Shown: positions 593-30,979 of the stretch, piece after piece
How positions within the stretch are numbered: position 1 is the stretch's first letter
Layout: the number at the start of each line of letters is the position of its first letter
Assembly: GCA_013002175.1 (NCBI GenBank)
Contig: JABDKP010000021.1
Location: forward strand, 1-44,469
DNA length: 44,469 nt
Reading direction: 5' to 3'
DNA from: Ilumatobacter sp.
Lineage (GTDB): Bacteria; Actinomycetota; Acidimicrobiia; Acidimicrobiales; Ilumatobacteraceae
The notes under the pieces: generated by a model
What the model was told of the DNA's origin: nothing
Seen by the model: the letters and a program-made list of their open reading frames with translations, nothing else
The model's database searches: none
Program-made: the position numbers and the translations under genes

Positions 593-621
593 GTCAACGT
601 TGTGCCAGGCACAACTTTGAC
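593..621. terminator. hairpin terminator after the M23 gene
   Basis: Inverted repeat with 14-bp arms and a one-base loop centre; one mismatch between the arms. The core GTTGTGCC-A-GGCACAAC is the same as in the hairpin at 2152-2186. Flanking TTTGAC gives a weak T-rich edge. Termination is inferred from position just after a stop codon. Confidence 0.6.
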
Positions 622-624
622 GTC

Positions 625-667
625 GGGACGTTTGGCCCTGATCGCCCCGCGCGCGGGCCCACAGACT
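625..667 (+). promoter_or_regulatory. DosR-type box and -10 for the multicopper oxidase
   Basis: Box GGGACGTTTGGCCC at 625-638, then 23 nt, then -10 CAGACT at 662-667. The predicted start of transcription is 674, the A of a short leader ORF. Confidence 0.65.
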
Positions 668-673
668 GCATGG

Positions 674-703
674 ATGCACCCGATTTCCGGATCCCTGCGA
701 TGA
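674..703 (+). other. possible leaderless 9-codon leader ORF overlapping the oxidase start
   Basis: ATG at 674 opens a frame for MHPISGSLR and stops with TGA at 701-703, which overlaps the ATG at 700 of the oxidase (ATGA). The ATG coincides with the start site predicted from the box. Translation of the leader is inference; it could couple or attenuate oxidase translation. Confidence 0.3.
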
Positions 704-2136
704 CCACCGTCGAAACACCCCCCTCCGCTGGGCCCGGTGACGGCCCACCGGACACCTACCCCCGCCTCGACCGCTCCGCCTCGTCGATGGAGGGCACGGG
801 CGTCTTCCTGCTCGCGGCGGCGGTGATCGTGGTCATGATCGCGGGGATCGTCGTCATCGGGCTGGTTGCACTGTTGCGCGACAACTCCACGGCGGCGTCG
901 ACGGCGACCACCAACCTCGAGGTCTCGCTGACCGAGTTCGCCATCGACGGTCAGCTCACCGCGCCCGAGGGCAACGTCGTGCTCAACGTGTTCAACGACG
1001 GCGCGATCGAGCACAACCTGGCGATCAGGGGCACGGACATCCGCTCGAAGAACCTGCTCTCGCGGGGACTCGACATCGTCAACATCCCCAACCTGTCCGC
1101 CGGCACGTACGAGCTGTACTGCACGATCGCCGGCCACGAAGGCTCGGGGATGACCGCCGAACTCGTCATCACTGCGGGCGGCGAGGCCGCGCCTGCCGCG
1201 GCGGCCGAGGGCCACGAGATGACTGCGGCCGAGATGGACCAGGTGATGATCGACTCGATGCTCGCCTTCCCGACAGCCACCGAGGGCAGCGGCAACCAGT
1301 TGCTCGACTTCGAAGTGCTGGCCGACGGTACGAAGCAGTTCGAGCTGACCGCGGCGATCACGCCGTGGGAGGTGTCACCCGGCCAGATCGTCGAGGCGTG
1401 GAGCTACAACGGGATGGTGCCCGCGCCGCAGATCAAGGTCGACGTGGGCGACAAGGTGCAGGTGATCGTGCACAACGAGACGCCGATGGGCACCGACGTG
1501 CACTGGCACGGCATCCACACGCCGAACGACCAGGACGGCGTGTCGCCGTACACCCAGGACCCGATCAGTGCCGGCGAGACGTTCACGTACGAGTTCGTCG
1601 CGGAGGACCCCGGCATCGGTATGTACCACGCCCATCTCCACAGCCAGATCTCGGTCCCGAACGGGATGTTCGGGGCGTTCATCATCGGCGAGAACCCGCT
1701 CCCCCGAGGACAGACGATCAGCGGGGTCACGATCCCCGAGGACCTCGAAGTGGCGACCGAACTGCCGATGGTGCTCAACGACGCGGGAGTGATCGGCCTG
1801 TCGTTGAACGGCAAGAGCTTCCCGGCGACCGAGCCGCTGGTCATGGAAGAAGGCTCGTGGGCGGCGGTGCACTACTACAACGAGGGCCTGACCAGCCATC
1901 CGATGCACCTCCACCAGTTCCCGGCGCTCGTCTACGCCAAGGACGGGTTCCCGCTCGACCAGCCGTACTACGCCGACACGATCAACGTGGCGCCGGGTGA
2001 GCGGTACTCGATCCTGTTCCAGGCCGAGGATCCCGGGACCTGGGTGTGGCACTGCCACATCCTCACCCACGTCGAACGCGACGACGGCATGTTCGGCATG
2101 GTTACCGCCGTCGTCGTGACGCCGAAGGAGACCTGA
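700..2136 (+). CDS. membrane-anchored cupredoxin / two-domain multicopper oxidase fusion
   Basis: The protein has 478 residues. A cytoplasmic N-terminus is followed by one membrane segment (about residues 35-58). Next is a plastocyanin-like domain with a type-1 copper pattern (an early His, then YCTIAGHEGSGM). The C-terminal half is a two-domain laccase-like oxidase with all four copper motifs: HWHG (H268/H270), YHAHLH (near 310), HPMHLH (near 400) and WHCH with a downstream Met (near 451). These form a type-1 site in the last domain and a trinuclear O2-reducing site. The substrate is unknown. It is not a NirK nitrite reductase, because the second motif is HAH, not HC. The start at 700 is preferred over an in-frame ATG at 670, which lies upstream of the predicted transcription start. 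A DosR-type box lies upstream. Confidence 0.85.
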   Translation: MTTVETPPSAGPGDGPPDTYPRLDRSASSMEGTGVFLLAAAVIVVMIAGIVVIGLVALLRDNSTAASTATTNLEVSLTEFAIDGQLTAPEGNVVLNVFNDGAIEHNLAIRGTDIRSKNLLSRGLDIVNIPNLSAGTYELYCTIAGHEGSGMTAELVITAGGEAAPAAAAEGHEMTAAEMDQVMIDSMLAFPTATEGSGNQLLDFEVLADGTKQFELTAAITPWEVSPGQIVEAWSYNGMVPAPQIKVDVGDKVQVIVHNETPMGTDVHWHGIHTPNDQDGVSPYTQDPISAGETFTYEFVAEDPGIGMYHAHLHSQISVPNGMFGAFIIGENPLPRGQTISGVTIPEDLEVATELPMVLNDAGVIGLSLNGKSFPATEPLVMEEGSWAAVHYYNEGLTSHPMHLHQFPALVYAKDGFPLDQPYYADTINVAPGERYSILFQAEDPGTWVWHCHILTHVERDDGMFGMVTAVVVTPKET

Positions 2137-2151
2137 CCACCCCGCCCGACG

Positions 2152-2186
2152 CCTGACAAAGTTGTGCCTGGCACAACTTTGTCAGG
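2152..2186. terminator. bidirectional hairpin between convergent genes
   Basis: Perfect inverted repeat with 17-bp arms around a single T. It lies 15 nt after the oxidase stop and covers the stop codon of the minus-strand CoA-transferase gene. The A-run and T-run edges (ACAAAG and CTTTGT) suit termination in both directions. It shares its core with the hairpin at 593-621. Confidence 0.75.
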
Positions 2187-3474
2187 TGTAGTTCATCTCG
2201 TTGGCTTGACGCATCAGGTCGTCACGGTGGTCGGGGTGGGCGATCGCAATCAGCGCGAGCGTGCGCTCCCGAATCGACCGGCCGCGCAGTTCGGCGACCC
2301 CCCACTCGGTGACGATCTTGTCGACGGTGTTCTTCGGTGTCGTGACCACGTCGCCGCGCAGCAGCTGCGGCACGATCCGCGACTCACCCTTCGACGTCGT
2401 CGAGTGCAGCACGACGAAGCCCTGCCCGCCGTCGGAGTACATCGCCCCCCTGGCGAAGTCGTTCTGGCCGCCGGAGGACGAGAAGTACAGCCCGCCGATC
2501 GTCTCCGATGCGCACTGGCCGAGGAAGTCGACCGAGAGCGTCGCGTTGATCGAGACGAAGTCGGTCTCCTGCGCGATCACCCGCGGGTCGTTGACGTAGC
2601 GAACCGCGTGCAGCTCGATCGCAGTGTTCTCGTGCAGGAACTCGTGCAACCGCTTCGTGCCGAGGGCGAACGTCCCGACCGTCTTCGTCCGGTTCAGCCG
2701 CTTGCGCACACCGTTGACGACGCCGAGCTCCATCAGATCGACGACGCCATCGGACAGCAGCTCGGTGTGCACGCCGAGATCCTTGTGCCCGTCGAGCGCC
2801 GCCATGATCGCGTTCGGGATCGCCCCGATCCCGGTCTGGATCGTGGCCCCGTCCGGGATCCGAGCGGCGACGAACTCGGCGATCTTCGTGTCGATGTCGT
2901 CGGGCCGCTTCGGGATGATCTCCTTCAGCGGCCGGTCGCTGCGACACCATCCGGCAACCTGCGAGACGTGGATCTGGTTGCGCCCGAACGTCCGTGGCAT
3001 TGCATCGGTGACTTCGAGGAAGAACCGGCCGCGTCCGATGAAACTCGCCGTGTAGTCGGCGGAGACACCGAGCGAGAAGTAGCCGTGACGGTCCGGTGGC
3101 GACGCGGCGGCGACGACCAGTGGGTCGGCGGTCCGGCTGCGCATCAGGCTGTAGACCTCCGAGAAGTGGCCGGGCACGAGTCCGATCGTGCCGTTCGCGA
3201 AATGCGGGCGGGTGATGTAGGAGAGGAAGTACGAGATGTGCTTCAGCCCGGGACGGAACTCACCGCGGAGGTACGGCCGGTCGTGGATCGCGTGCATCTG
3301 CAGCACCCGTACGCCGACGAACCGGTGCGGGTCCGCCGCGGCCGCGTCCTCGACGGCATCCAGCACGGCGGTCGGCTCCCCGTTGGCCAGCGGCACGATC
3401 AGCTGCGTGCCGTGTCCGATCAGGTCGAGCACATCGGCAGGCACATGCGGGGCGTCCATCGATGTCGTCATCAC
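2182..3474 (-). CDS. acetyl-CoA hydrolase/transferase family protein (4-hydroxybutyrate CoA-transferase-like)
   Basis: The 430 residues match the usual length of the acetyl-CoA hydrolase/transferase family, which moves CoA between acyl-CoA and a carboxylic acid such as acetate, 4-hydroxybutyrate or butyrate. The conserved HTELLSDG segment carries the glutamate (about residue 238) that forms the glutamyl-CoA intermediate. GIGAIPNA and the C-terminal GVAELRGRSIRER are also typical of the family. The exact substrate cannot be read from sequence. The start has two adjacent ATGs and no strong ribosome site. No clear DosR-type box was seen upstream, so it may not belong to the surrounding regulon. 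A role in acetate or 4-hydroxybutyrate metabolism beside PFOR and lactate dehydrogenase is inference. Confidence 0.82.
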   Translation of the reverse strand: MMTTSMDAPHVPADVLDLIGHGTQLIVPLANGEPTAVLDAVEDAAAADPHRFVGVRVLQMHAIHDRPYLRGEFRPGLKHISYFLSYITRPHFANGTIGLVPGHFSEVYSLMRSRTADPLVVAAASPPDRHGYFSLGVSADYTASFIGRGRFFLEVTDAMPRTFGRNQIHVSQVAGWCRSDRPLKEIIPKRPDDIDTKIAEFVAARIPDGATIQTGIGAIPNAIMAALDGHKDLGVHTELLSDGVVDLMELGVVNGVRKRLNRTKTVGTFALGTKRLHEFLHENTAIELHAVRYVNDPRVIAQETDFVSINATLSVDFLGQCASETIGGLYFSSSGGQNDFARGAMYSDGGQGFVVLHSTTSKGESRIVPQLLRGDVVTTPKNTVDKIVTEWGVAELRGRSIRERTLALIAIAHPDHRDDLMRQANEMNYT

Positions 3475-3528
3475 CGCACACCGTACGAGGACGCGCGCGC
3501 TCGCGCCCCAACGTCGGCTGCCCTCCGG

Positions 3529-3675
3529 TCAGTCGTGGGGCAGCTCGTGCACTTCGAGCCCGGCCACGACGGCGGCATGATCGGGGTGGTCGTTGACCAC
3601 GTGATCGATCAGCTCGGCGTGGTACGTGAACACGAGATCACAGTACGGGCACGTGCGGGTTTCGTGTTTCCTCAT
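3529..3675 (-). CDS. small C2H2 zinc-finger protein (48 aa)
   Basis: A 48-residue protein with one classical finger: CPYC, 12 residues, then H-x4-H (HVVNDH). A good ribosome site, AGGAG, lies 5 nt before the ATG. The start overlaps the stop of the P-type ATPase gene (ATGA), so translation is probably coupled. It is therefore the last gene of the CMD-like / ATPase / zinc-finger operon under the box at 6795. The function is unknown; metal sensing or nucleic-acid binding are possibilities. The acidic, His-rich C-terminus might bind metal. Confidence 0.75.
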   Translation of the reverse strand: MRKHETRTCPYCDLVFTYHAELIDHVVNDHPDHAAVVAGLEVHELPHD

Positions 3676-6578
3676 CTCGCTCCTGGTTCCATCATGGACA
3701 CATTCCGGCGCCGCGCGCCAGGGGCGTCGTGCGCGGCCGGGCGCGGTCCGGGACGGCGCCTCATGCGGACGACGAGCTTGCGGATCTCGTCGGCGACGAG
3801 CACCGAGCTGGCGAGAGCGAGGCAGATCGCCCACCGGCGCCCGTCGAGCGGCACGGTGTCGAAGGCCCGGTTGAGCGGTCCGACGTGGACGACGGCGACC
3901 TGGAGGACCACCGTGACCGCCACGGCCGCCCAGAGCAGGCGGTTGTCGAACGGACGGACGAACGCGCTGACCACGTCGGACCGGGAGTTGAAGGCGTTGA
4001 AGATCTGCGCCAGCACGACGGTCGTGAACGCCATCGTCCGCGCTGTCGCGAGGTCGCCCGATCCGCCGAGCATCCCACCCGGCAGCTCCAGATCGAGGGC
4101 GACGAGTCCGGCGAGCGCGGTCACGACCCCGACCAGCACGATCGTCATCAACATCGGTGCGTCGATCACCCGGTCCGTCAGCGCGCGGGGTTGGTCCGAC
4201 ATCACGTCCTCGACGGCCGGATCGACACCCAGCGCGAGCGCCAGCACGCTGTCGGTCAACAGGTTGATCCACAGGATCTGAGTCGCGAGGAGCGGCACCG
4301 CGAGCCCCTCGGTCGAGTCCGCGAGCCCGAGCAGGCCGGCCGCGAGGACACCGATCAGGACGACGAGCACCTCGCCCGTGTTCGAGGCGAGCAGGTACCG
4401 GAGGAACTTGCGGATGTCCGCGAAGATCTCGCGGCCCTCGCGGACCGCGTGCAGGATCGTCGCGAAGTTGTCGTCGGCGAGGATCATGTCCGCCGCTTCC
4501 TTCGACACCTCGGTGCCGTTGATGCCCATCGCGACACCGATGTCGGCCTGCTTCAGTGCCGGCGCGTCGTTGACCCCGTCGCCGGTCATCGCGACGATCT
4601 GACCCTGATCCTGAAGCGTCTCGACGATCCGCAGCTTGTGTTCGGGTGCGACCCGCGCGAAGACCGAGTTGCGGTCGACGACGTCCGCGAACTGGTCGTC
4701 GTCCAGCGCCACCAGCTCGCGTCCGGTGATGCCCTGACCGGTCGGCTCGCGGTCGATGCGGCCGATGCCGAGTTGTGCGCCGATGCGGGTCGCCGTACGC
4801 GGATGATCGCCGGTGATCATCAGTACGCGCACGCCGGCCCGGTTCGCCTCGGCGATCGCCGCAGCAGCTTCCGGGCGCGGCGGGTCGATGATGCCGACGA
4901 CACCGAGGTGGATCATGTCCCGCTCGATCGACTCGTCGACGGGTCGCTGCAGCGTGTCGATCGGCCGGTACGCCACGGCGAGCGTGCGCAGCGCCTGGTC
5001 GCCGAGCCGGTCGACCTGTGCGGCGATCTCGGCTCGCCGCTCGGCAGTGAGCGCCACCACTGCGCCGGCAACACGTTCGTGGGTACATCGCTCGGCCAGC
5101 ACCTCGGGCGCGCCCTTCGTGACGACCATCAGCTCGGCGCCGCCCGCGGAACTCTCGACGGTGGACATCAACTTGCGGTCAGAGTCGAACGGCACCTCCG
5201 CGACCCGCTGGAAGTTCCGCTGACGTCGCTCGTCGCCTCCCAGCTTGCGCTCGGCCACGAGGAAGGCGATCTCGGTCGGGTCGCCGACGACCTCCCACCG
5301 GCCGGCCGCATCGGCGCGAATCGAGGCGTCGTTGGCGAGACTGCCGGCCCGCAGCACGAGCTCGATCTCGTCGATGACTCCCCCATCGGTGATCGGCTCG
5401 CCGTGCTCGACCAGGTGGCCGACCGGTTCGTACCCGATGCCGGTCAGCTCGGCGTCGGTCGAGGCGGTGAGCACGCGCACGATCGTCATCTCGTTGCGGG
5501 TCAGCGTGCCGGTCTTGTCGGTGCAGATCACCGACGCGGAGCCCAGCGTCTCCACCGACAGCAGCTTCTTGACGATCGCCCGCTTGTCCGCCATCCGCTT
5601 CACACCGAGGGCGAGCACCACGGTGAGGATTGCCGGCAGGCCCTCCGGGATCGCGGCGACCGCGAGTGAGACGCCGACGAGGAGGGCATCGAACAGGTCA
5701 GCGGCCGACGACACATCGGACGTCGCGACGATTGCGGCCACGACCACCGACGACAGCGCGATCACGGCGACGCCGAGCATCTTGCCGAGCCAGTCGATCT
5801 GCTGCTGCAACGGCGTCCGCTCCTGCGTCGTGGCGTCGAGCATCGAAGCGATCCGGCCGATCTCGGTCGCCATGCCGGTCGCCACCACGACCCCGCGGCC
5901 TCGTCCGCGGCTGACCGCGGTGCCGTTGAAGACCATGTTGGTCCGGTCGGCGAGCTGCGTGTGCGCGACGAGCGAGCCGCGCTGCTTCGCGACCGGTTCG
6001 CTCTCGCCGGTCAGCGCGGCCTCGGCGACTTCGAGGGACGCGCTCTCGACGACTCGGCAGTCGGCGCCGACCGCGTCGCCCTCCGCCAGGAGCACCACAT
6101 CGCCGGGCACCAACTCGCTGCTCGGGATCGACCGGGTCACCGCATCACGGACGACGGTGCTCCGGGTGCCCGTCAGCATCTGCAGGGCACGGACCGCATG
6201 CAGCGCCCGCGTCTCCTGCCAGAACCCGATCAGCGCGTTGAGCGCCACGATCGCCGCGATGACGATCGCCTCCAACGGCGCCCCGGTTGCGCCCTCGCTC
6301 GCCCATGCACCCAGCGAGATCGCGATCGCGACGAGCAGCAGGACCACGAGTGGATCGTCGAATTGCTCGACGAAGCGGCGCCAGGCCGGTACCGGTGCCG
6401 CCGCGACCAGCTCGTTGGATCCATGGCGCGACCGTCGCTCGGCGACGTCCGCCGCGTCCAGCCCACGGTCGGCGTCGACGCGCAGCTCGGCGCACACGTC
6501 GTCGGCGTCGCGCTGCCACGGCGTGTCCGGCGTCGGGGCACCGAACCGGGCACCGGCCCGGGCGGCGGCGTCGACCAT
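3672..6578 (-). CDS. P2A-type (Ca2+-type) cation-transporting P-type ATPase, CtpF-like
   Basis: Complete 968-residue pump. In order it has an N-terminal cation-ATPase domain, the actuator motif TGES, the phosphorylation motif DKTGTLT, a nucleotide-binding domain and the hinge GDGVNDAP. Transmembrane ligand motifs match SERCA-type calcium pumps: PEGLP in M4, SNTGEV in M5 and NLLTD in M6. These suggest Ca2+ (possibly Mn2+) transport out of the cytoplasm. Its ATG directly abuts the stop of the upstream CMD-like gene with no gap, and its stop overlaps the zinc-finger start. M. tuberculosis CtpF is also a DosR-regulon P2A ATPase, which supports the regulon assignment. The ion is inferred, not shown. 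Confidence 0.9.
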   Translation of the reverse strand: MVDAAARAGARFGAPTPDTPWQRDADDVCAELRVDADRGLDAADVAERRSRHGSNELVAAAPVPAWRRFVEQFDDPLVVLLLVAIAISLGAWASEGATGAPLEAIVIAAIVALNALIGFWQETRALHAVRALQMLTGTRSTVVRDAVTRSIPSSELVPGDVVLLAEGDAVGADCRVVESASLEVAEAALTGESEPVAKQRGSLVAHTQLADRTNMVFNGTAVSRGRGRGVVVATGMATEIGRIASMLDATTQERTPLQQQIDWLGKMLGVAVIALSSVVVAAIVATSDVSSAADLFDALLVGVSLAVAAIPEGLPAILTVVLALGVKRMADKRAIVKKLLSVETLGSASVICTDKTGTLTRNEMTIVRVLTASTDAELTGIGYEPVGHLVEHGEPITDGGVIDEIELVLRAGSLANDASIRADAAGRWEVVGDPTEIAFLVAERKLGGDERRQRNFQRVAEVPFDSDRKLMSTVESSAGGAELMVVTKGAPEVLAERCTHERVAGAVVALTAERRAEIAAQVDRLGDQALRTLAVAYRPIDTLQRPVDESIERDMIHLGVVGIIDPPRPEAAAAIAEANRAGVRVLMITGDHPRTATRIGAQLGIGRIDREPTGQGITGRELVALDDDQFADVVDRNSVFARVAPEHKLRIVETLQDQGQIVAMTGDGVNDAPALKQADIGVAMGINGTEVSKEAADMILADDNFATILHAVREGREIFADIRKFLRYLLASNTGEVLVVLIGVLAAGLLGLADSTEGLAVPLLATQILWINLLTDSVLALALGVDPAVEDVMSDQPRALTDRVIDAPMLMTIVLVGVVTALAGLVALDLELPGGMLGGSGDLATARTMAFTTVVLAQIFNAFNSRSDVVSAFVRPFDNRLLWAAVAVTVVLQVAVVHVGPLNRAFDTVPLDGRRWAICLALASSVLVADEIRKLVVRMRRRPGPRPAAHDAPGARRRNVSMMEPGAR

Positions 6579-6743
6579 CTAGGCCTCGAACTGGTCGAGG
6601 GCCCGCAGCGTGTTGGTCGCGTACGTCGAGGCCGGTCCGCCCCCCATCAGCAGGGCGACGCCGATCGTCTCGTGGACCTGCTCGTTCGTGGCGCCGGCGT
6701 GGCGCAACTCGGTGCGCCGGGCAGGAACGTCGACGGTGGTCAT
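6579..6743 (-). CDS. mini carboxymuconolactone-decarboxylase/AhpD-like protein (54 aa)
   Basis: Only 54 residues, against roughly 100-130 for the family. It resembles the C-terminal half of the CMD fold (GATNEQVHETIGVALLMGGGPAS...). The redox CxxC of AhpD is absent. It is clearly expressed as a unit: AAGGAGG stands just upstream of the ATG, and the box-derived transcription start (6759) leaves a 16-nt leader containing that site. The stop abuts the ATPase start. It may be a genuine small protein, a remnant kept for its translation signals, or a partner of the ATPase. Confidence 0.75.
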   Translation of the reverse strand: MTTVDVPARRTELRHAGATNEQVHETIGVALLMGGGPASTYATNTLRALDQFEA

Positions 6744-6765: not shown

Positions 6766-6808
6766 AGCATGCCCGGCGCCGGGCGCACGAGCCAGGGGCC
6801 AAGGTCCC
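6766..6808 (-). promoter_or_regulatory. DosR-type box and -10 for the CMD-like/ATPase/zinc-finger operon
   Basis: Box GGGGCCAAGGTCCC at 6795-6808; -10 CATGCT at 6771-6766 on the minus strand; predicted start at 6759. Confidence 0.72.
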
Positions 6809-6820: not shown

Positions 6821-6863
6821 GGGACGTAGTGCCCTGTCGACCCGCTCCCGAGCCGTCGACACT
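6821..6863 (+). promoter_or_regulatory. DosR-type box and -10 for pyruvate phosphate dikinase
   Basis: Box GGGACGTAGTGCCC at 6821-6834; -10 GACACT at 6858-6863; predicted start near 6870, leaving a leader of about 82 nt. Divergent from the box at 6795. Confidence 0.68.
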
Positions 6864-21089: not shown

Positions 21090-21116
21090 GACAGCGAGCG
21101 ACAGAATGGAGCCATG

Positions 21117-22490: not shown

Positions 22491-24139
22491 CGACGACCGC
22501 AGCACCGCCGCGCGTCGACGTCGAGCACGAGCCGGACGAACCCGCACGACCCCGACCGCTCGCCGGGGTCTGGCAGCTCCTCCGGCTCGTCGGCCGGCGC
22601 GACCGCTTCCGGATTGCGGTCTGGACGACCGCGATCATCGGCCTCGTCGTCGCGACGGTCGCCAGCATCATCGGCCTCTACGACACGCAGGCCGAACTCG
22701 ACCAGTACGGCCAGCTCATCGTGGGCAACGCCGCACTGATCGTGCAGACCGGCCCCGGCTACGGACTGAGCGATCCGACGACCGGATCGGTCGTCATGAA
22801 CGAGTTGTCGCTGTGGACGATCATCGCGGTCGCGCTGATGAGCATCTTCATGACCGTGCGCCACACCCGCGCCGACGAGGAGAGCGAACGCGCCGAGCTG
22901 ATCCGTTCCTCGCCCGTCGGCCGCCATGCGCCGCTCGCGGCCACGCTCACGGCGGTCGGTGCGACCAACGTGCTGATCGGGGCGGCGGTCTCGCTGTCGC
23001 TGATCGTGTACGGGCTGCCGACAACCGGCTCGTTGGCGTTCGGGGTCTCGCTGGTGCTCGCCGGCGTGCTGTTCTCCGGCGTCGCCGCCGTCACCGCACA
23101 GATCGCGAGCAACGCCCGGTCGGCAGTCGCGCTGGGCGGCGTCGTGCTCGCGGCGTCGTTCGTCGTGCGCGCCGTCGGCGATGTCCGCAGCAGCGTGCTC
23201 TCGTGGTGCTCGCCGCTCGGCTGGGCGCAGGCGATCCGAGCGTTCGCGGACGAACGCTGGTGGGTGCTCGTCCTTCCGCTCGCCACCACGGTGGTGCTGG
23301 TGAACGGCGCGATCGCGCTCCAGGAGCGGCGCGACTTCGGCGCCGGTCTGCTGCGCCAGCGGCCGGGGCCGGCAACCGCGTCACCCCGCCTCGGTTCGCC
23401 GTTCGGCCTCGCGATCCGGCTGCAACGCGCCACGCTCGCCGGCTGGACGGCCGGGTTGGCGGTCGTCGGATTCTTCTACGGCATCGTCGCCGACCAGGCC
23501 GAATCGATCATCGAGGACAATCCGGACATGGCCGACTTCTTCGCCCAACTCGGAGAGGCCTCGATCACCGACGCCTTCCTCGCGACGTCGGTGTTGATCC
23601 TCGCGCTGACCGCCACCGGGTTCACGATCACGTCGGTACTGCGGCTGCGATCCGAGGAGGCCGCTCAACGCGCCGACCCGGTATTGGCCACCCCGACCCC
23701 CCGGTGGCGCTGGGTCGCCAGCCACGTGCTCGTCGCCGTCGGCGGGACGATCGTCGTGATGCTCACGACCGGGGCGGCACTCGGCGCCGGCTTCGGACTG
23801 ATGACCGGTGACGGCGGACAGGTGCCGCGATTGGCGATCGCGGCGCTCGTGATGGTGCCCGCGATGGTGGTCGTCGGGGGCGTCGCACTCGCGGCGTGCG
23901 CGCTGGTGCCGCGGTTTGCGCTCGCCGCGTGGAGCACGCTCGCCGGCGTGTTCGTGATCGGTCTGTTCGGCACGGTGCTGAAGATGCCCCAGTGGCTGGT
24001 CGCCGTGTCGCCGTTCGATCATGTGCCGGCGATGCCGGCCGAGCCCTTCGACGCGCTGCCTCTGCTGCTGCTGGGTCTGACGGCCACGGCCTTCACCGCG
24101 TCCGCACTCGTCGGCTACCGGCGCCGCGACATCGGGTGA
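22487..24139 (+). CDS. ABC-2 type exporter permease (antibiotic exporter-like)
   Basis: 550 residues with about twelve hydrophobic segments arranged as two similar six-helix halves (first about 40-290, second about 315-545). The size and layout match large actinobacterial permeases annotated as polyketide antibiotic exporters. The N-terminal 35 residues are polar. It is coupled to the ATPase by an ATGA overlap. The substrate is unknown; drug, lipid or peptide export are all possible. Control by a dormancy-type box is the notable feature. Confidence 0.88.
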
Positions 24140-24156: not shown

Positions 24157-24200
24157 AGGTCTTCCGACCCTATTGACCGAAGGCCTCGCACCCATACGTT
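24157..24200 (+). promoter_or_regulatory. DosR-type box and -10 for CBS-pair protein 2
   Basis: Box AGGTCTTCCGACCC at 24157-24170; -10 TACGTT at 24195-24200, the best match in the set; predicted start at 24207 with GGAGG at 24208-24212 inside an 11-nt leader. Confidence 0.62.
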
Positions 24201-24217: not shown

Positions 24218-24661
24218 ATGATCGACGACCCGATGAACGACACGACGAACGAAACGATGTTGGATGCCTTCGACGAGTTCGCGGACGTGGGCACGTCGAT
24301 CGCATCATTCGTCAGCAACGGCACCGTCACGACCACTGCAGACACGTCGCTGCGGGACGCGGCCGTGATGCTCGATCAGGCCGGCGTGGGCTGCATCGTC
24401 ATCGGCACCGCCCCCGCGGTCGAGGGCGTCGTCTCCGAACGCGACATCGTGCGCGCCGTCGCCGCTGGACTCGACCTCGATGCGGTCACGGTCGGCGAGA
24501 TCGAGACCAAGGAGCTCAAGTGGGCCACGCCGGATTCGGGCGTCACCGACGTCGCCGCGGAGATGCTGGAGAACTACGTCCGCCACGTCCTCGTCGGCGA
24601 GGACGGCTCGATCGTGGGCGTCGTCTCGATGCGTGACCTGCTGGGCGCGTTCGTCGAGTGA
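24218..24661 (+). CDS. CBS-pair protein, paralogue 2
   Basis: 147 residues: about 30 acidic residues, then two CBS motifs (first with AVEGVVSERDIVRAVAAGL, second with VRHVLVGEDGSIVGVVSMRDLL). It is similar in design to the CBS protein at 17307 and to Hrp1, and a nucleotide-sensing role is inferred. ATG 24218 has GGAGG 5 nt upstream; an upstream TTG at 24173 lies within the promoter and is rejected. The bifunctional-nuclease gene follows 90 nt later and may share the transcript. Confidence 0.87.
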   Translation: MIDDPMNDTTNETMLDAFDEFADVGTSIASFVSNGTVTTTADTSLRDAAVMLDQAGVGCIVIGTAPAVEGVVSERDIVRAVAAGLDLDAVTVGEIETKELKWATPDSGVTDVAAEMLENYVRHVLVGEDGSIVGVVSMRDLLGAFVE

Positions 24662-24751
24662 CCAGACGCCGTCGCGGCTGCCGGGGCACGACTTGAGTGA
24701 CGGTCGGCGATGGGTGATGATGGAGCCAGGACGAACGAGGAGGTCGACGTC

Positions 24752-25285
24752 ATGGTGCCGGTGCAGATCCTCGGTGTGTACCTCGACCCGAACTCGGGGT
24801 CGTCGATCGTGCTGCTCGGCGAGCCGAGCGACGTCACCCGCGTCCTGCCGATCTTCATCGGCCCCGCCGAGGCGCAGGCAATCGCGATCGGCATCGCCGA
24901 GGTGGAGATGCCCCGTCCCGGCACCCACGACCTGATGGTCGAGATCATCAACCGGTGGCACGCCCGCCTCGTCGAGGTGGACGTGACCGAGTTGCGCGAC
25001 GGGACGTTCTTCGCGGAGCTCGAGCTGGCGACGGCCGACGGCACCCAGCGCGTGTCCTCCCGTCCGAGCGACGGCATCGCACTGGCGGTGCGGGTCGGGG
25101 CGCCGATCATGGTCGCACAGCGGGTGCTGGACACCGCAGCCGTGGGCGTCGAACGGGGCGACGACGAGCCGTTCGACGCGGCGCAGATCGAAGCGATCGT
25201 CGCCGAGTTCCAGGATTTTCTGGCGACTGCGGAACCAGAGGACTTCGGCGCGCCTGGCGGCCCGCCGGCCGAGGAGACCCCCTGA
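24752..25285 (+). CDS. bifunctional nuclease family protein (DUF151)
   Basis: 177 residues. The DUF151 core spans about 1-130: VPVQILGVYLDPNSGSSIVLL, LPIFIGPAEAQAIAIG, RPSDGIALAVRVGAPI. Plant and bacterial members have been described as having RNase/DNase activity, which is not certain here. ATG 24752 is chosen because GAGGAGG lies 8 nt upstream. No DosR-type box was found directly in front; it may be read through from the CBS gene. An acidic C-terminal tail of about 40 residues follows the domain. It converges with the small minus-strand gene, with only 6 nt between the stops. Confidence 0.88.
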   Translation: MVPVQILGVYLDPNSGSSIVLLGEPSDVTRVLPIFIGPAEAQAIAIGIAEVEMPRPGTHDLMVEIINRWHARLVEVDVTELRDGTFFAELELATADGTQRVSSRPSDGIALAVRVGAPIMVAQRVLDTAAVGVERGDDEPFDAAQIEAIVAEFQDFLATAEPEDFGAPGGPPAEETP

Positions 25286-25291: not shown

Positions 25292-25462
25292 TCAGTCCCG
25301 GTCGTCGTCGTCCAGCGCGACCTCGCGCCGCTGGTCGATGACGTCGGGCACGGGGTCCTCGAACGACGCGTCCAGCTCGTCCGGCAACGTGTCATCGACG
25401 TCTGTCTCGTCGATCACCCGCTCGGCGTCGGGGTCGGTACGTGGTTGTCCACCGGTGGCCAT
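25292..25462 (-). CDS. small acidic protein of unknown function (56 aa)
   Basis: 56 residues, about a third Asp/Glu, no Cys, no membrane segment; probably disordered. No family is recognised. Evidence that it is real: a perfect palindromic DosR-type box (25498-25511) and a CAACAT -10 place the predicted transcription start exactly on its ATG, as for other members of the island. No ribosome site is present, which fits a leaderless mRNA. Confidence 0.65.
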   Translation of the reverse strand: MATGGQPRTDPDAERVIDETDVDDTLPDELDASFEDPVPDVIDQRREVALDDDDRD

Positions 25463-25468: not shown

Positions 25469-25511
25469 ATGTTGCCGCGTCTGCGGCCGTGTCACAAGGG
25501 TCGAACGACCC
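25469..25511 (-). promoter_or_regulatory. DosR-type box (perfect palindrome) for the small acidic protein
   Basis: Box GGGTCGAACGACCC at 25498-25511; -10 CAACAT; predicted start at 25462, the ATG. Confidence 0.74.
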
Positions 25512-25528: not shown

Positions 25529-25801
25529 TCAGGCGTCGACGACGCGGCTCTGGACCTGGCGCTCCTCGATCATGCTCCACGCATCGTCTGCCAGGCGGTT
25601 CGCGAGGTTGTGCAGCGCGCGGGCCGCAGCCAACTCCTCGCCGACCTGGGGCAGCGACGGATCGGTCGGGTTTCGACGAGAGCGGCCGTGTCCGGAGAGC
25701 GAACGGTCACCCGCGTCGAGGTGGACGACCATGTCGCAGTGGTCTTCGTCTTCACGGGTCTCGAAGACCAGTTTCCAAGGGTGCAGTGACAGATTTTCCA
25801 T
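25529..25801 (-). CDS. DUF1876 protein, Rv1738-like
   Basis: 90 residues. The pattern GHGRSRRNPTDPSLPQVGEELAAARALHNLANRL matches the DUF1876 family, in which M. tuberculosis Rv1738 (a DosR-regulon protein of similar length) has [22 protein letters not shown] in the same place. Rv1738 has been reported to resemble ribosome hibernation factors in fold, so a role in ribosome silencing or dormancy is plausible but unproven. The box at 25837 and the GACAGT -10 predict a start on the ATG (leaderless). No strong ribosome site is visible. Confidence 0.85.
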   Translation of the reverse strand: MENLSLHPWKLVFETREDEDHCDMVVHLDAGDRSLSGHGRSRRNPTDPSLPQVGEELAAARALHNLANRLADDAWSMIEERQVQSRVVDA

Positions 25802-25807: not shown

Positions 25808-25850
25808 ACTGTCGCGCGTTGTGCAGCGAACAGACAGGGCCGAATGTCAC
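25808..25850 (-). promoter_or_regulatory. DosR-type box and -10 for the DUF1876 gene
   Basis: Box GGGCCGAATGTCAC at 25837-25850 (right half weak), overlapping the stop codon of DHODH-like 2; -10 GACAGT; predicted start at 25801, the ATG. Confidence 0.65.
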
Positions 25851-26890
25851 GGTCCGTGTCGACGGGACAGCCCGATCGAGGTCGCGCCCCGAAATGTGCT
25901 GGTGTAGCTGGCGAGGTTGCCGATGTAGTTCGCCCGTTCGTACGCGGTCGGATCGGCCGCACCGCTGCTCGACACCGCCCCGCGCATTTCACTCACCGCG
26001 TGATAGTCGTGGGCCGTCATCCAGTGACGCAGCTGCGCCTCGATGGTGGCGACGTGGCCCGGGCCGTGCTGCAGCAACGCCGACGTCGTCATCACGACAT
26101 CGGCGCCGGCGAGAACGAGCTTCGCGGCGTCGAACCCGGAGTGCACGCCACTGGAACATGCGATCGACATCGTGAGGTACTCGCGCAGGATGCCGGCCCA
26201 CCGCAACGGGAGCCGCACCTCGTCGGGCGTGCTGAGGGCGAGTCGCGGGACGACGTCGAGGGTCTCCAGGTCGAGGTCGGGCAGGTAGAAGCGGTTGAAC
26301 ATCACCACCCCGCCGGCGCCCGCCTGTTGCAGACCGACCACGAACGAGGCCAGCGACGAGTAGCTCGGCGAGATCTTGACCGCGACCGGGATGTCCACCT
26401 CGCCCGCGAGCACCGCGACGAGTTCGAGGTGCTCGGATTCCAGCGACGAGCCCGAGACATGCGGATCGGCGGCCACCGAGTACAGGTTGAGCTCGATCGC
26501 GTCGGCGCCGGCGTCCTCGAGCACCTGCGCGTAGCGCAGCCACCCGCCGATGTTCGTCCCGTTGAGGCTGGCGATCACCGGGATGTCGACGCGATGCTTG
26601 ACCCGCCCGATGTGGTCGACGTACGAGTCGACGATGTCGTCGTGCACACCCACCTCGGGGAGCAACGAGGTCGCTTCGCCGAAGCTGTCGTTGTGGAGCG
26701 TGTACAGCCGCTCGATCTCGCCCGTCTCGTGCTCGATCTGTTCCTCGAACAGCGACGGCAGGACGACCGCACCCACGCCGGCCTGTTCGAGTTCGACGAT
26801 CCGGTCGAGGTCGCCCGTCAGCGGGCCGGCGGACGCCACGATCGGCGAACGCAGGCGGAGCCCGAGGTAGTCGGTGTGCAGGTCGGTCAT
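25847..26890 (-). CDS. dihydroorotate dehydrogenase-like flavoprotein, paralogue 2, coupled to PFOR
   Basis: 347 residues, closely similar over its whole length to the protein at 12175. FMN-site segments are conserved (SPIVASAGPLTGD, VIASLNGTN, AVKISPS, GVHSGFDAAKLVLAGAD). The class-1 catalytic Cys loop is again replaced (ELNLYSVAADP). Its start overlaps the PFOR stop (ATGA), so the two are made together. This suggests electron exchange with PFOR or ferredoxin rather than pyrimidine synthesis. No PyrK-like subunit is nearby. A C-terminal tail of about 20 residues is absent from paralogue 1. Confidence 0.85.
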   Translation of the reverse strand: MTDLHTDYLGLRLRSPIVASAGPLTGDLDRIVELEQAGVGAVVLPSLFEEQIEHETGEIERLYTLHNDSFGEATSLLPEVGVHDDIVDSYVDHIGRVKHRVDIPVIASLNGTNIGGWLRYAQVLEDAGADAIELNLYSVAADPHVSGSSLESEHLELVAVLAGEVDIPVAVKISPSYSSLASFVVGLQQAGAGGVVMFNRFYLPDLDLETLDVVPRLALSTPDEVRLPLRWAGILREYLTMSIACSSGVHSGFDAAKLVLAGADVVMTTSALLQHGPGHVATIEAQLRHWMTAHDYHAVSEMRGAVSSSGAADPTAYERANYIGNLASYTSTFRGATSIGLSRRHGP

Positions 26891-29800
26891 GGTGCGTCCT
26901 CCGGTCCGCGGGCGACTTCGACGACGACCTCATCGGCGGCGCGCACGTGGGGCACGGATCGCTCGACGGCGCTGAGCTGCTCGTAGAACCGCCACCGTTC
27001 ATCGATGCCCGCCTGGGCGAGGTCGAGGAGGTGATCGGACCGTGCCGGGTCGGAACGCGCCAGCATCGCGTAGCGGGCCTCGTCGAGGGCGAAGTCCCGC
27101 AGCGGGATGCTCGGGGCGGCGGAGTCGAGCTGGAACGGCTGCTCGTGTTCGTCGACCGACGGCCGGTAGCGGTAGAGCGGCCAGTACCCGGACTTCACCG
27201 CGTCCTTCTGGTGTGCCATCGATGTCGTCATGTCGATGCCGTGCGCGATGCACGTCGAATACGCGATCACGAGGGACGGTCCGTCCCAGGCATCCGCCTC
27301 CTGCAACGCCTTGACGGTCTGGATCTCGCTGCCGCCGAGCGCGATCTGGGCGACGTACACGTCGCCGTAGCGGCGCGCCACGGCCCCGAGGTCCTTCTTC
27401 GCGGTCGCCTTGCCCGCCGCCGCGAACTTCGCCACGGCGCCGAGCGGGGTGGCCTTCGAGGCCTGCCCCCCGGTGTTCGAGTACACCTCGGTGTCGAGGA
27501 CGAGCAGGTTGACGTTGCGGCCGCTCGACAGCACGTGGTCGACGCCGCCGTAGCCGATGTCGTAGGCCCACCCGTCGCCGCCGATGATCCAGGTACTGGT
27601 GCGGACGAGTTCGTCGGCGATCGACTCCAACCGGCGCGCGCTCGGGTCGTCGATGTCGGCGAGGGCCGCCCGCAGCTGCTCGACCCGCTGACGTTGCAGG
27701 ACGATGCCGGCTTCGGTGGGCGCCGGGTTCGCCAACAGTTCCGCCGTGATGTCGGAGCCGAGCCGGTCGGCCAGTTCGCCGACGAGGCGGCGGGCCTCAC
27801 GTTGGTGCTGCTCGACCCCGAGCCGGAGTCCCAGGCCGAACTCGGCGTTGTCCTCGAACAGCGAATTCGACCACGCCGGACCGTGGCCGTCGGCGTTCGC
27901 CGCCCAGGGCGTCGTCGGCAGGTTGCCGCCGTAGATCGACGAACAGCCGGTCGCGTTCGCCACCACGAGCCGGTCGCCGAACAACTGTGTGAGGAGCTTC
28001 AGGTACGGCGTCTCGCCGCATCCCGAGCATGCGCCGGAGAACTCGAACAGCGGCTCGAGCAGCTGAGAGTTCTTCACCGAATCGTGGGTCACGAGGGACC
28101 GGTCGAGCTCGGCGATCGCGAGGAAGAAGTCCCACCGCTCGCGCTCGGCGGCTCGATGCGCGTCCGCGTCCAGCATGTTGATCGACTTGCGCTTGACCTG
28201 GGTCTTGTCCTTCGCCGGGCAGACCTCGACACAGATCCCACACCCGGTGCAGTCGTCCGGTGCGACCTGGATCGTCAGCTGATGATCGTCGAGCTCGCGT
28301 GAGCGGAACGGCTTCGACTTGAAGTCGCCGGGTGCGCCGGCGAGGGCGTCGAGCGGGAACGCCTTCATCCGGATCGCGGCGTGCGGGCAGACGATCGCAC
28401 ACTTGCCGCAGTCGATGCACAGGTCGGGTTCCCAGACCGGAAGCTCGGCGGCGAGCTTGCGCTTCTCGATACGCGTGGTGCCGACCGGGAAGGTGCCGTC
28501 GACCGGCATCGCAGACACGGGCAGGAGGTCCCCTCTGCCGGCGATCATCGTGGACGTCACGCGTTCGACGAAACCCGCCTGCGTCGCGGCGGTCGCCGCG
28601 GCGAGTCCGTCGCCGTCCGGAAGGGCGTCGGCCGGGACGGTGACCCGCTGGAGTCCGGTGCGTGCCCGTTCGGCGGCGGCCTGATTGCGCTCGACGACCT
28701 GCGGCCCCCGCCGGCCGTATGCCTCGACGATCGACTGGTTGACCGCATCGTGCGCGGCGTCGGCGTCCATCACGTCGATCAGGGCGAACAGGCACGGCTG
28801 CATCACCGTGTTGATGCGCCCGGGAAGCCCGACTTCCCGCGCGATCTTCGCCGCGTCGATCGTGAAGACGCGCAGCTCACGTTCGACGATCTGGCGGCGG
28901 ATCGTCGACGGGAGATGGTCCCACACCTCGTCCGCCGGGTATGGCGCGTTGAGCAGCAACGTGCCGCCGCGTCGCGCCGTTTCGAGCACGTCGAAGCGGT
29001 CGAGCAGGCCGAACTGGTGACACGCGACGAGGTCGGCGTCCTGCACGAGGTACGTCGAACGGATCGGCTCCGGCCCGAAGCGCAGATGGGACACGGTCAT
29101 CGAACCGGACTTCTTCGAGTCGTACACGAAGTAGCCCTGCGCGTGGAGGCCCGGTTGCGCACCGATGATCTTGACCGACGCCTTGTTCGCGCCGACCGTG
29201 CCGTCGCTGCCCAGTGCATAGAGCACGGCTGTCCGCGCCGCTGTGTGGACGCGGAACGACTCGTCGATGTCGAGGCTCAGGCCGGTGACGTCGTCGGTGA
29301 TGCCGACGGTGAACCGCGGCCGCGGGTCGTCGCGCACGAGTTCCTCGAGTACGCCGCGGGCCATCGCCGGCGTGAACTCCTTGGACCCCAGGCCGTACCG
29401 CCCGCCGATCACTCGGATCGGACGACCGGCGAGCACGCTGACCACGTCCTGGTGCAGAGGTTCCCCGACGGCACCCGGCTCCTTCGTGCGGTCGAGCACG
29501 GCGATCGAGCGCACGGTCGACGGCAGCGCATCGAGCAGCGAGTCGACGGGAAACGGCCGGAAGAGGCGCAGCGTCAACAGGCCGACGCGCTCACCGGCGG
29601 CGACGAGCTGCGCGACCGCCTCACCCGCAGCGCCCGATCCGGAGCCCATCATCACGATCACCCGCTCGGCGTCGGCGGCGCCCTCGTAGTCGACCAGGCC
29701 GTAGTGTCGTCCGGTGCGCTGCGCGAGCTGCGCGAACAGGCTGCTCACCGCGTGGGGCACCTCGTCGTGGAACGGGTTGGCGGCCTCCCGACTCTGGAAG

Positions 29801-30468
29801 AACACGTCGGGGTTCTGCGCCGTCCCGCGCACGACCGGTGCACTCGGGCGTAGCCGGCGCAGCTTGTGGGCCCGCACATCCTCCTCGCTCACCAGTGCAC
29901 GCAGTGTCCCGGCCTCGAGCGGCTGAATGCTGTTGACCTCGTGGGACGTGCGGAAGCCGTCGAAGAAATGGAGGAACGGGACACGCGTCCGCAACGTCGC
30001 CGCATGCGCCACCGCGGCGAAGTCCTGCGCTTCCTGGACCGAGCTCGCACACAGCATCGCGAAGCCGGTCGTCCGGGCCGCCATCACGTCGCTGTGGTCA
30101 CCGAAGATCGACAGCGCATGAGTCGCGACCGACCGGGCCGCGACGTGGATGACCGCCGGGGTCAGTTCCCCGGCGATCTTGAACATGTTCGGCAGCATCA
30201 GCAACAGCCCCTGCGACGCCGTGAACGTGGTGGCCAGCGCGCCGGCCTGCAGGGCGCCGTGCAGCGCGCCGGCCGCACCCGCCTCCGATTGCATCTCGAT
30301 CACCTCGGGCACCGCGCCCCACATGTTCTCGCGGTGCGCAGCCGCCCACGCGTCGGCGTGCTCGCCCATCGGCGAGGCGGGCGTGATCGGGTAGATCGCC
30401 ACGAGGTCGGAGAGTTGGTAGGCGACAGCGGCCGCCGCCTCGTTTCCGTCGATCACGGCTGCAGTCAT
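26887..30468 (-). CDS. nifJ: pyruvate:ferredoxin (flavodoxin) oxidoreductase, single-chain
   Basis: A complete 1193-residue homodimer-type PFOR that oxidises pyruvate + CoA to acetyl-CoA + CO2 and reduces ferredoxin or flavodoxin. Order: pyruvate-binding domain (YPITPASPMGEHADAW near 27), CoA/transketolase-like domains, two [4Fe-4S] motifs (CIDCGKCAIVCP near 690 and CTGCGICVEVCP near 740), a third-cluster segment CSGCGETPY near 812, and the TPP domain GDGWAYDIGYGG near 966 with SNTGGQASKATPLG. ATG 30468 is chosen because it matches the family N-terminus and the transcription start predicted from the box. The enzyme is oxygen-sensitive in most organisms, which fits low-oxygen control. Confidence 0.96.
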   Translation of the reverse strand: MTAAVIDGNEAAAAVAYQLSDLVAIYPITPASPMGEHADAWAAAHRENMWGAVPEVIEMQSEAGAAGALHGALQAGALATTFTASQGLLLMLPNMFKIAGELTPAVIHVAARSVATHALSIFGDHSDVMAARTTGFAMLCASSVQEAQDFAAVAHAATLRTRVPFLHFFDGFRTSHEVNSIQPLEAGTLRALVSEEDVRAHKLRRLRPSAPVVRGTAQNPDVFFQSREAANPFHDEVPHAVSSLFAQLAQRTGRHYGLVDYEGAADAERVIVMMGSGSGAAGEAVAQLVAAGERVGLLTLRLFRPFPVDSLLDALPSTVRSIAVLDRTKEPGAVGEPLHQDVVSVLAGRPIRVIGGRYGLGSKEFTPAMARGVLEELVRDDPRPRFTVGITDDVTGLSLDIDESFRVHTAARTAVLYALGSDGTVGANKASVKIIGAQPGLHAQGYFVYDSKKSGSMTVSHLRFGPEPIRSTYLVQDADLVACHQFGLLDRFDVLETARRGGTLLLNAPYPADEVWDHLPSTIRRQIVERELRVFTIDAAKIAREVGLPGRINTVMQPCLFALIDVMDADAAHDAVNQSIVEAYGRRGPQVVERNQAAAERARTGLQRVTVPADALPDGDGLAAATAATQAGFVERVTSTMIAGRGDLLPVSAMPVDGTFPVGTTRIEKRKLAAELPVWEPDLCIDCGKCAIVCPHAAIRMKAFPLDALAGAPGDFKSKPFRSRELDDHQLTIQVAPDDCTGCGICVEVCPAKDKTQVKRKSINMLDADAHRAAERERWDFFLAIAELDRSLVTHDSVKNSQLLEPLFEFSGACSGCGETPYLKLLTQLFGDRLVVANATGCSSIYGGNLPTTPWAANADGHGPAWSNSLFEDNAEFGLGLRLGVEQHQREARRLVGELADRLGSDITAELLANPAPTEAGIVLQRQRVEQLRAALADIDDPSARRLESIADELVRTSTWIIGGDGWAYDIGYGGVDHVLSSGRNVNLLVLDTEVYSNTGGQASKATPLGAVAKFAAAGKATAKKDLGAVARRYGDVYVAQIALGGSEIQTVKALQEADAWDGPSLVIAYSTCIAHGIDMTTSMAHQKDAVKSGYWPLYRYRPSVDEHEQPFQLDSAAPSIPLRDFALDEARYAMLARSDPARSDHLLDLAQAGIDERWRFYEQLSAVERSVPHVRAADEVVVEVARGPEDAP

Positions 30469-30474
30469 CACCTG

Positions 30475-30518
30475 ATGATGGGCATGGGCGACGCCGGCTG
30501 ACGATGGCCCAAAGTCCC
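30475..30518 (-). promoter_or_regulatory. DosR-type box and -10 for the PFOR operon
   Basis: Box TGGCCCAAAGTCCC at 30505-30518; -10 CATCAT; predicted start 30468-30469, at the ATG. Confidence 0.7.
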
Positions 30519-30539
30519 GACTTCGGAAACCGCCAGGCG

Positions 30540-30583
30540 GGGACCTTGTGCCCTGTCGGCGCCGCCGCCTCGTCGGGCACGAT
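30540..30583 (+). promoter_or_regulatory. DosR-type box and -10 for the gene at 30590
   Basis: Box GGGACCTTGTGCCC at 30540-30553; -10 CACGAT at 30578-30583; predicted start 30589-30590. Divergent from the PFOR box, 35 bp apart. Confidence 0.7.
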
Positions 30584-30589
30584 GCCGAC

Positions 30590-30979
30590 ATGGCTCATGC
30601 TCCTGACACCTCGGCCGGATTGGCGGTCCCCGACGCGATCGCAGCACAGCTCGCGTACCACACCCGGATGGCCGCCGTCTTCGCGGTCGCGGGCGACACC
30701 GCAGAGAGCGCGTCCGAGGCGGTGTTGGCATGGGCGATGTTGGCGACGTCGTGGGACGGCGCGGCGAACGCGGCGTCGACGGCGGCGGCCGAGCTCGTCG
30801 ACCAGGATCAGGCGTCGACGTCGCCGCTGCATCGCGATACAGCACGAGCCCGGGCCGAGGCGCTGGCCCTGGAACTGCAGGCCCACTACGTCAGCGTCGG
30901 CTTGCGCGCCGAGGCGGAGTTGTACGAGTCGATCGCGGAACGGCTGAACGACACGGTGGCGACGCTGGTCAACGACTGA
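30590..30979 (+). CDS. uncharacterised all-helical protein (129 aa)
   Basis: 129 residues, Ala-rich and predicted by eye to be almost entirely helical, with no membrane segment, Cys or known motif. No family is recognised. It is the right-most gene with a DosR-type box, divergent from PFOR. The ATG falls on the predicted transcription start and has no ribosome site, so it is probably leaderless. This arrangement supports it as a true gene and regulon member. Confidence 0.65.
   Translation: MAHAPDTSAGLAVPDAIAAQLAYHTRMAAVFAVAGDTAESASEAVLAWAMLATSWDGAANAASTAAAELVDQDQASTSPLHRDTARARAEALALELQAHYVSVGLRAEAELYESIAERLNDTVATLVND

Follow-up and report, generated by a model that had tools for sequence, protein, structure and literature searches.

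A compact DosR/OsdR-type regulon with a PAS-domain kinase and a fixed promoter format predicted in an Ilumatobacter genome

The closest described counterparts of the locus reported here are the OsdR/OsdK regulon of Streptomyces coelicolor (SCO0167-SCO0219) and the DosR/DevR regulon of Mycobacterium tuberculosis. A DosR-type regulon clustered around its regulator, with universal stress protein (USP) genes, pyruvate phosphate dikinase (PPDK) and a PNPOx-like protein, has already been described in Streptomyces, where the tested predicted OsdR targets were bound in electrophoretic mobility shift assays (EMSAs; PMC5069765), so this kind of system is known. The present analysis concerns an island of ~30 kb, with about 30 genes and 18 predicted promoters, in a metagenome-assembled genome (MAG) of Ilumatobacter sp. 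(GCA_013002175.1; 3.33 Mb, 89% complete), of which it makes up 0.9%; the window analysed was one whole contig of this MAG (JABDKP010000021.1, 44,469 nt). The island very probably represents a DosR/OsdR-type dormancy regulon, in which a PAS kinase would act on the regulator and the regulator on boxes centred at -42.5. An initial annotation of the window had proposed a DosR-type island, and this was partly confirmed: its substance is supported by regulator, boxes, promoter position and conservation, whereas the operator pattern it gave was too strict, the kinase is of PAS type and contiguity is not new in general.

The regulator (213 aa) consists of a NarL-type receiver and a GerE domain with the DosR recognition helix. 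Its best solved relative was M. tuberculosis DevR (3c3w, E = 8.4e-64), to which the EKTVKNYVS stretch of the recognition region was identical. It was the only match at E <= 1e-50 in its own genome, a homologue at this threshold was present in 36 of the 60 genomes searched (own genome counted), and its nearest named relatives were mostly acidimicrobial MAGs. A USP gene lies upstream of the regulator gene, as in M. tuberculosis (PMC5069765). Palindromic operators of the form GGGNC...GNCCC were found upstream of the putative targets, which include genes for a multicopper oxidase (MCO), a long hibernation-promoting factor (HPF), pyruvate:ferredoxin oxidoreductase (PFOR) and a bifunctional nuclease (BFN) domain protein:

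625..639, plus strand: DosR box and following T, MCO promoter; -10 at the 42.5-nt spacing; ATG at 42.5 nt (674) out of the MCO frame
6795..6808, minus strand: DosR box, AhpD-CtpF-CoA-transferase operon
6821..6834, plus strand: DosR box, PPDK; identical in G002
11277..11290, minus strand: DosR box, ATG 11241 at 42.5 nt, predicted leaderless
12146..12159, minus strand: DosR box, HPF; ATG 12110 at 42.5 nt; -10 pair at 41.5
13215..13228, minus strand: DosR box, ATG 13179 at 42.5 nt
13236..13249, plus strand: DosR box, USP1-DosR operon; no -10 match at the fixed spacing
16800..16813, minus strand: DosR box, USP2-kinase operon
17795..17808, minus strand: DosR box, ATG 17759 at 42.5 nt
17829..17842, plus strand: DosR box, ATG 17878 at 42.5 nt
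20357..20370, minus strand: DosR box, PNPOx-2; ATG 20320 at 43.5 nt; no -10 pair found
20401..20414, plus strand: DosR box, perfect palindrome; identical in G002
21047..21060, plus strand: DosR box, USP4-ABC operon
24157..24170, plus strand: DosR box, CBS2-BFN
25498..25511, minus strand: DosR box, ATG 25462 at 42.5 nt
25837..25850, minus strand: DosR box, ATG 25801 at 42.5 nt
30505..30518, minus strand: DosR box, PFOR; ATG 30468 at 43.5 nt
30540..30553, plus strand: DosR box, ATG 30590 at 43.5 nt

If operons are read from the order of the genes, each gene between 670 and 30979 would fall into a unit with such a box. All 18 had been taken to fit GGGNCSNNSGNCCC; six do so exactly, seven with one mismatch, three with two (24157, 25837 and 30505) and two with three (11277 and 12146). 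Exact matches were enriched in the window (8 observed versus 1.47 expected from shuffles), whereas matches with up to one mismatch occurred at chance level (37 versus 37.6), so that the weaker boxes draw no support from the stated pattern, which was dropped as sole evidence. Genome-wide, 64 exact matches were found (reversed control 46). A form with an A/T centre, picked after the boxes were seen yet also part of the DosR consensus quoted in the initial annotation, gave 17 matches versus 2 in the control, 6 of the 17 inside the island (probability ~7e-9 for 0.9% of the genome, by our own arithmetic from the counts). These counts establish the strong boxes as real; the weak ones required separate evidence, which position and conservation provide and the pattern does not. 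The near-perfect palindromes claimed for four boxes were recovered, with 7/7 pairs at 20401 and 6/7 at 16800, 21047 and 25498. One further exact match, at a start codon (20507-20520) and not among the 18, was not conserved in the congener G002, is probably due to chance and was dropped.

An independent matrix was taken from 26 of the predicted Streptomyces OsdR sites listed in PMC5069765; the OsdR box, AGGGCCGATCGGCCCT, is close to the island box GGGCCGTTCGGCCC(T). With the expectation drawn from 354,895 bases of this genome, the matrix found 12 matches in the island at a score of at least 10 (2.65 expected) and 15 at a score of at least 9 (6.08 expected), while scoring some listed boxes poorly (-0.3 for 24157, 1.9 for 12146).

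With the boxes oriented by us towards the next gene according to gene order, a T directly followed the box in 18/18 cases, compared with 2/18 on the far side and an island background of 0.154 (binomial 2e-15). A TANNNT-like -10 element, scored as an A-11/T-7 pair, was present at the 42.5-nt spacing from the box centre in 12/18 (background 0.023, binomial 4e-16) and at 42.5-43.5 nt in 15/18 (background 0.046); away from the gene, the pair was found at 42.5 nt in 3/18. Ten of the 18 boxes have an in-frame ATG at 42.5 nt (11241, 12110, 13179, 17759, 17878, 25462 and 25801) or 43.5 nt (20320, 30468 and 30590) from the box centre, and the -10 pair accompanies it in eight of these, that of HPF standing at 41.5 nt and PNPOx-2 having none. 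Because the in-frame ATG stands at start-point distance, these ten mRNAs should be leaderless, their predicted start falling on the ATG or one base before it. The box would thus occupy -49 to -36 of the predicted transcription start site and overlap the -35 region. Such a class II placement is already known, since the proximal DosR box of M. tuberculosis overlaps the -35 element (PMC3029386); OsdR boxes, unlike those of the island with their fixed spacing, vary in position from +36 to -391 relative to the gene start (Table 1 in PMC5069765). In M. smegmatis, 24% of transcripts are leaderless, and DosR motifs lie upstream of hypoxia-induced starts (PMC6448022).

ATG offsets were also tallied with the OsdR matrix, which makes them independent of the original choice of boxes. 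At a score of at least 9, the ATGs at 42.5 and 43.5 nt numbered 4 and 1 in the island (all other offsets: mean 0.27, maximum 3), 2 and 1 in G002 (mean 0.25), 2 and 3 on acidimicrobial contigs (mean 0.53), 5 and 1 in other relatives (mean 0.61), and 1 and 0 in the own-genome background (mean 0.72). Actinomycete DosR loci showed no offset spike with this matrix (2 and 2, mean 3.02).

In G002 a 37-kb contig carries the island with its gene order kept; the hexapeptide, hydrolase and first dihydroorotate-dehydrogenase-like (DHOD-like) genes are lacking. Ten aligned intergenic stretches were identical in 165/182 box columns and 495/820 other columns (17 box and 72 other gap columns set aside). A composite promoter model trained on the 18 boxes found, at a score of at least 14, boxes at 14/14 testable positions in G002, matched via gene order by us; boxes 625, 11277, 13215 and 25498 have no equivalent in G002, because the contig ends or the gene was not found. 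The model gave 3 matches at this score in 707,390 positions of own-genome background. The hydrolase and hexapeptide genes (9677-11241, minus strand), which have their own leaderless box here, are absent from the G002 island; units apparently enter or leave the island with their promoters attached.

The tight motif was enriched near DosR homologues, with 14 matches versus 0 in the control at 16 acidimicrobial loci and 29 versus 4 at 64 other loci. The loose palindrome was enriched at the acidimicrobial loci (31 versus 5) but not at the other 64 (133 versus 168), and was rejected as a general mark of DosR loci. Across the order, GGGACNTTCGGCCC followed by 35 nt and ATG, with at most one mismatch, gave 91 matches (control 7), spread over 54 of the 198 genomes scanned. 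The ATG was intact in 67 of the 87 composite matches outside the own genome, and 49 of those had the T after the box. Although the -10 element had played no part in their selection, these 49 carried A at -11 in 80% and T at -7 in 86% (both in 35/49), versus 0-3 for shifted A/T pairs; among the 18 matches lacking the T, two had the pair. At 19 order-wide loci read by eye, with genes named by our own reading, eight matches preceded PNPOx-like (3), USP (1), AhpD-like (1), DosR (2) or MCO-like (1) genes, the remainder being mixed or not genes. In the own genome the composite matched four times with up to one mismatch, always in the window (one, 625, with its ATG out of frame), 12 times with up to two (7 in the window, one of which, 16800, reads away from the gene) and 56 times with up to three (control 21). 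The composite was rejected as exclusive to Acidimicrobiales, 31 actinomycete genomes giving 19 matches versus 2 in the control (a single sequence recurs in five of the 19, and the -10 pair is present in 3 of the 15 distinct matches), and also as a constant neighbour of DosR in every relative, since among 17 stretches scanned L133, L139, L144, L145 and L148 had no match of at least 14.

The DosR kinases of M. tuberculosis are the heme-GAF proteins DosS and DosT. Unlike them, the kinase of the island has one PAS domain (Pfam) and no tandem heme GAF of the DosS/DosT/OsdK type. OsdK is DevS/DosT-like, with 41-42% identity and many oxygen-sensing residues kept (PMC5069765). Residues 1-290 of an actinomycete GAF-GAF kinase had no match in the own genome, and no GAF-type DosS was found elsewhere in the 89%-complete MAG. 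Ten kinases near DosR were scanned: a pair of GAF stretches is present in each of the two from named actinomycetes, and the eight from the acidimicrobial side have one PAS (five), one GAF, several PAS plus GAF, or several PAS (one each, the last being the second kinase in G009).

By sequence, the best solved relatives of the PAS domain were 10jx/10jy, FixL and DosP; Foldseek placed whole LOV kinases first, followed by FixL, DosP and 10jx (predicted model from 13 sequences, mean pLDDT 83, pTM 0.43). The 10jx structure shows the heme PAS domain of FG214, in which His156 is the proximal ligand and either His175 or Met172 the distal one (PMC13060918). An ungapped alignment placed His156 at His62, Met172 at Met78 and His175 at Gly81, so the proximal His, as in FixL and FG214, and the alternative distal Met of FG214 have counterparts, whereas neither His175 nor the distal O2-stabilising Arg220 of FixL (Leu here) is kept; the output, a DosR-type regulator, also differs from both. 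H62, R76 and M78 were present in 26/26 PAS kinases of an alignment of 27 chosen by us (mostly 320-480 aa, one without PAS). The kinase is likely a heme-based gas or redox sensor with His62 and Met78 as predicted ligands, because its best PAS relatives by sequence are heme PAS domains and both residues align with the FG214 ligands and are kept in the aligned PAS kinases. An H...R.M PAS motif was found near DosR in 12/15 acidimicrobial-labelled contigs, 16/27 order relatives (some on cut contigs) and 4/21 other contigs, a count of sensor types biased by the finding of kinases via similarity to that of the island.

Among 36 genomes searched (the own one counted), 11 have PFOR, and in seven of these (G000, G002, G016, G047, G017, G040 and G020) a composite promoter scoring at least 14 lay within about 100 nt upstream of its start. 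Such a promoter was absent in G042 and G049 and weak in G019 (11.9), and in G004 the contig ends upstream of PFOR. PFOR and DosR share a contig in G047 and G049, the latter without the promoter. More than one PFOR locus (L249 and L251) was seen in G049, one adjoining its DosR gene. We know of no PFOR target in the M. tuberculosis DosR regulon, and a full-text search on DosR and pyruvate ferredoxin oxidoreductase in Actinobacteria yielded one paper, on M. tuberculosis KG oxidoreductase.

Genes, boxes, -10 elements, spacing and conservation are read directly from the sequence, and from them a course of events may be proposed in which operons, binding, phosphorylation, heme, signal, leaderless translation and physiology, hypoxic induction included, are predictions. 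At low oxygen, or on a rise in NO, the cytoplasmic PAS kinase would phosphorylate the DosR-type regulator, whose dimer would bind GGGACnTTnGGCCCT boxes centred at -42.5, replace the -35 element and recruit polymerase to the TANNNT-like -10. The ten leaderless mRNAs would need no Shine-Dalgarno sequence. Their products and those of the other units would stall growth and rewire metabolism through USPs, CBS proteins, a RafH-like hibernation factor and a cation ATPase, with PFOR, CoA-transferase, D-lactate dehydrogenase (D-LDH) and PPDK as fermentative output. The system could amplify itself, since both the USP1-DosR and USP2-kinase operons carry boxes.

Several observations weigh against this reading. 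The USP1-DosR and PNPOx-2 boxes have no -10 pair at the fixed spacing and HPF is one base off; the orientation of boxes was ours; island counts with the composite model are circular because it was trained on the same 18 boxes; and G002 is a near relative. DosR regions of G007, G019, G027 and half of those of G006 gave no composite match of at least 14, and with the OsdR matrix at a score of at least 7 the own-genome background peaked, unexplained, at 41.5 (7, mean 1.70). Heme in the PAS domain is not assured, since Arg220 of FixL is replaced by Leu and an H...RPM motif may be common among PAS domains. The kinases adjoining DosR in the order are of PAS type in part, and at 89% completeness the MAG may lack a GAF kinase that the organism has. 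That the 18 boxes are GC-rich pseudo-palindromes picked by eye would fit the chance level of one-mismatch matches and the 12/18 boxes off the stated pattern, yet it is hardly credible given the binomial values for the -10 pair and the T and the conservation in G002. Fixed spacing to a -10 and a start codon would also be expected if the 15-mers were extended -35 elements of an alternative sigma factor; this is very improbable, the boxes being palindromic, matching predicted OsdR sites of which several are EMSA-bound, enriched near acidimicrobial DosR homologues and followed by an ordinary TANNNT-like -10.

A less distant alternative, which we still consider unlikely, accepts the boxes as DosR-type operators, has the kinase sense redox, a metabolite or light, and sees in the regulon a response to general stress or to stationary phase in place of hypoxia. 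The ligands of PAS domains are diverse, proteins such as MCO and USPs serve in general stress, Arg220 of FixL is missing here, and LOV kinases came first in Foldseek. Against this alternative, the closest PAS relatives by sequence are heme domains whose proximal His and alternative distal Met are conserved, and PFOR, CoA-transferase and D-LDH suit oxygen lack.

Pfam and NCBIfam assignments recovered, at family level, the gene families named initially, and stress and fermentation genes stand side by side:

670..2136, plus strand: MCO (Pfam), start 670 or 700
2182..3474, minus strand: acetyl-CoA hydrolase/CoA-transferase (Pfam); NCBIfam butyryl-CoA:acetate CoA-transferase below cut-off
3529..3675, minus strand: 48-aa zinc-finger-like open reading frame (ORF), CxxC...H..H (CPYC...H...H) in translation; between CtpF and CoA-transferase, in a region conserved in G002
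3672..6578, minus strand: CtpF-like P-type cation ATPase (Pfam, NCBIfam)
6579..6743, minus strand: AhpD-like short ORF, named by our reading; in-frame short form
6952..9669, plus strand: PPDK (NCBIfam TIGR01828 above cut-off), start uncertain
9677..10450, minus strand: alpha/beta hydrolase (Pfam)
10447..11241, minus strand: hexapeptide-repeat protein (Pfam)
11292..12110, minus strand: RafH-like long HPF, two S30AE_C stretches (Pfam)
12175..13179, minus strand: DHOD-like protein 1 (Pfam)
13312..14223, plus strand: tandem USP 1 (Pfam)
14249..14890, plus strand: DosR/DevR/OsdR-type response regulator, 213 aa (Pfam Response_reg and GerE)
14895..15869, minus strand: sensor histidine kinase, 324 aa, one PAS, HisKA_3 and HATPase_c (Pfam)
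15916..16713, minus strand: tandem USP 2, upstream of the kinase (Pfam)
16816..17307, minus strand: PNPOx-like (Rv3129-type) 1 (Pfam)
17307..17759, minus strand: two-CBS protein (Hrp1-like) 1 (Pfam)
17878..18735, plus strand: tandem USP 3 (Pfam)
18759..19760, plus strand: D-LDH family (Pfam; NCBIfam below cut-offs)
19781..20320, minus strand: PNPOx-like 2 (Pfam)
20521..21030, plus strand: 169-aa protein without Pfam match
21114..21566, plus strand: single-domain USP 4 (Pfam)
21579..24139, plus strand: ABC transporter ATPase (Pfam) and a second, likely permease, gene without Pfam match, conserved in G002
24218..25285, plus strand: two-CBS protein 2 and BFN domain protein (Pfam)
25292..25462, minus strand: short acidic ORF without Pfam match
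25529..25801, minus strand: Rv2632c-like protein (Pfam PF08962)
25847..26890, minus strand: DHOD-like protein 2 (NCBIfam NF005741 above cut-off)
26887..30468, minus strand: PFOR (NCBIfam TIGR02176 above cut-off)
30590..30979, plus strand: 129-aa protein without Pfam match

The island thus holds four USP genes, three of them tandem, and two each of PNPOx-like, CBS and DHOD-like genes (Pfam/NCBIfam). The two S30AE_C stretches predicted in HPF fit its RafH-like label. We take the Rv2632c-like protein to belong to the Rv1738 family, and the Hrp1, Rv1738, Rv3129 and RafH types to be common to the island and the M. tuberculosis DosR regulon. The AhpD-like gene of G002 is longer, with a cysteine-pair stretch read from the alignment.

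PAS sensor, promoter format and PFOR wiring set the island apart from the Streptomyces and mycobacterial regulons. The M. tuberculosis regulon is scattered over the genome, according to the initial annotation, and the island is compact. The OsdR regulon includes nitrate reductase and developmental genes (PMC5069765), and the island PFOR, CoA-transferase, D-LDH and HPF. Contiguity, originally presented as new, is so for this class, although a clustered DosR-type regulon is described in Streptomyces (PMC5069765). The statement that no such island had been described in this lineage fits the one search aimed at it, of an open-licence library, where no co-mention of Acidimicrobi and DosR was found; Acidimicrobi and DevR were covered within wider searches, in one of which the 10 results listed of 335 had no mention of Acidimicrobi. 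A broader proposition, for and against which we see the case as evenly balanced, is that Acidimicrobiales DosR regulons often run on a His/Met heme-PAS kinase and a rigid format (box at -42.5, TANNNT, often ATG at +1) giving leaderless stress mRNAs, with a RafH-like hibernation factor here and a recurrent PFOR wire, the regulator-operator pair being kept while sensor and metabolism are exchanged. The island itself would extend a known dormancy switch to an actinobacterial class for which the search found no description, with an output suggested to include fermentation genes. It also offers a case of sensors exchanged in nature, with one kind of regulator and operator standing behind either GAF or PAS kinases. 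Its promoter grammar is strict enough for predicting regulons, and likewise transcription starts, from genomes of uncultured organisms, and it offers a direct test of whether dormancy regulons are translated by a leaderless route during ribosome hibernation.

Beyond the island, 11 A/T-centre sites were found in the genome: three outside called ORFs (L121, L128 and L129), two in the first part of an ORF (L124 and L170) and six inside ORFs. The first five are not claimed as regulon members, their neighbours (acyl-CoA dehydrogenase; thiolase/DsbB; solute-binding protein/acyltransferase; a DUF3592/lectin-fold pair; a protein without Pfam match) having no dormancy theme. A composite box match with a score of 15.0 was also seen at 41187 on the plus strand.

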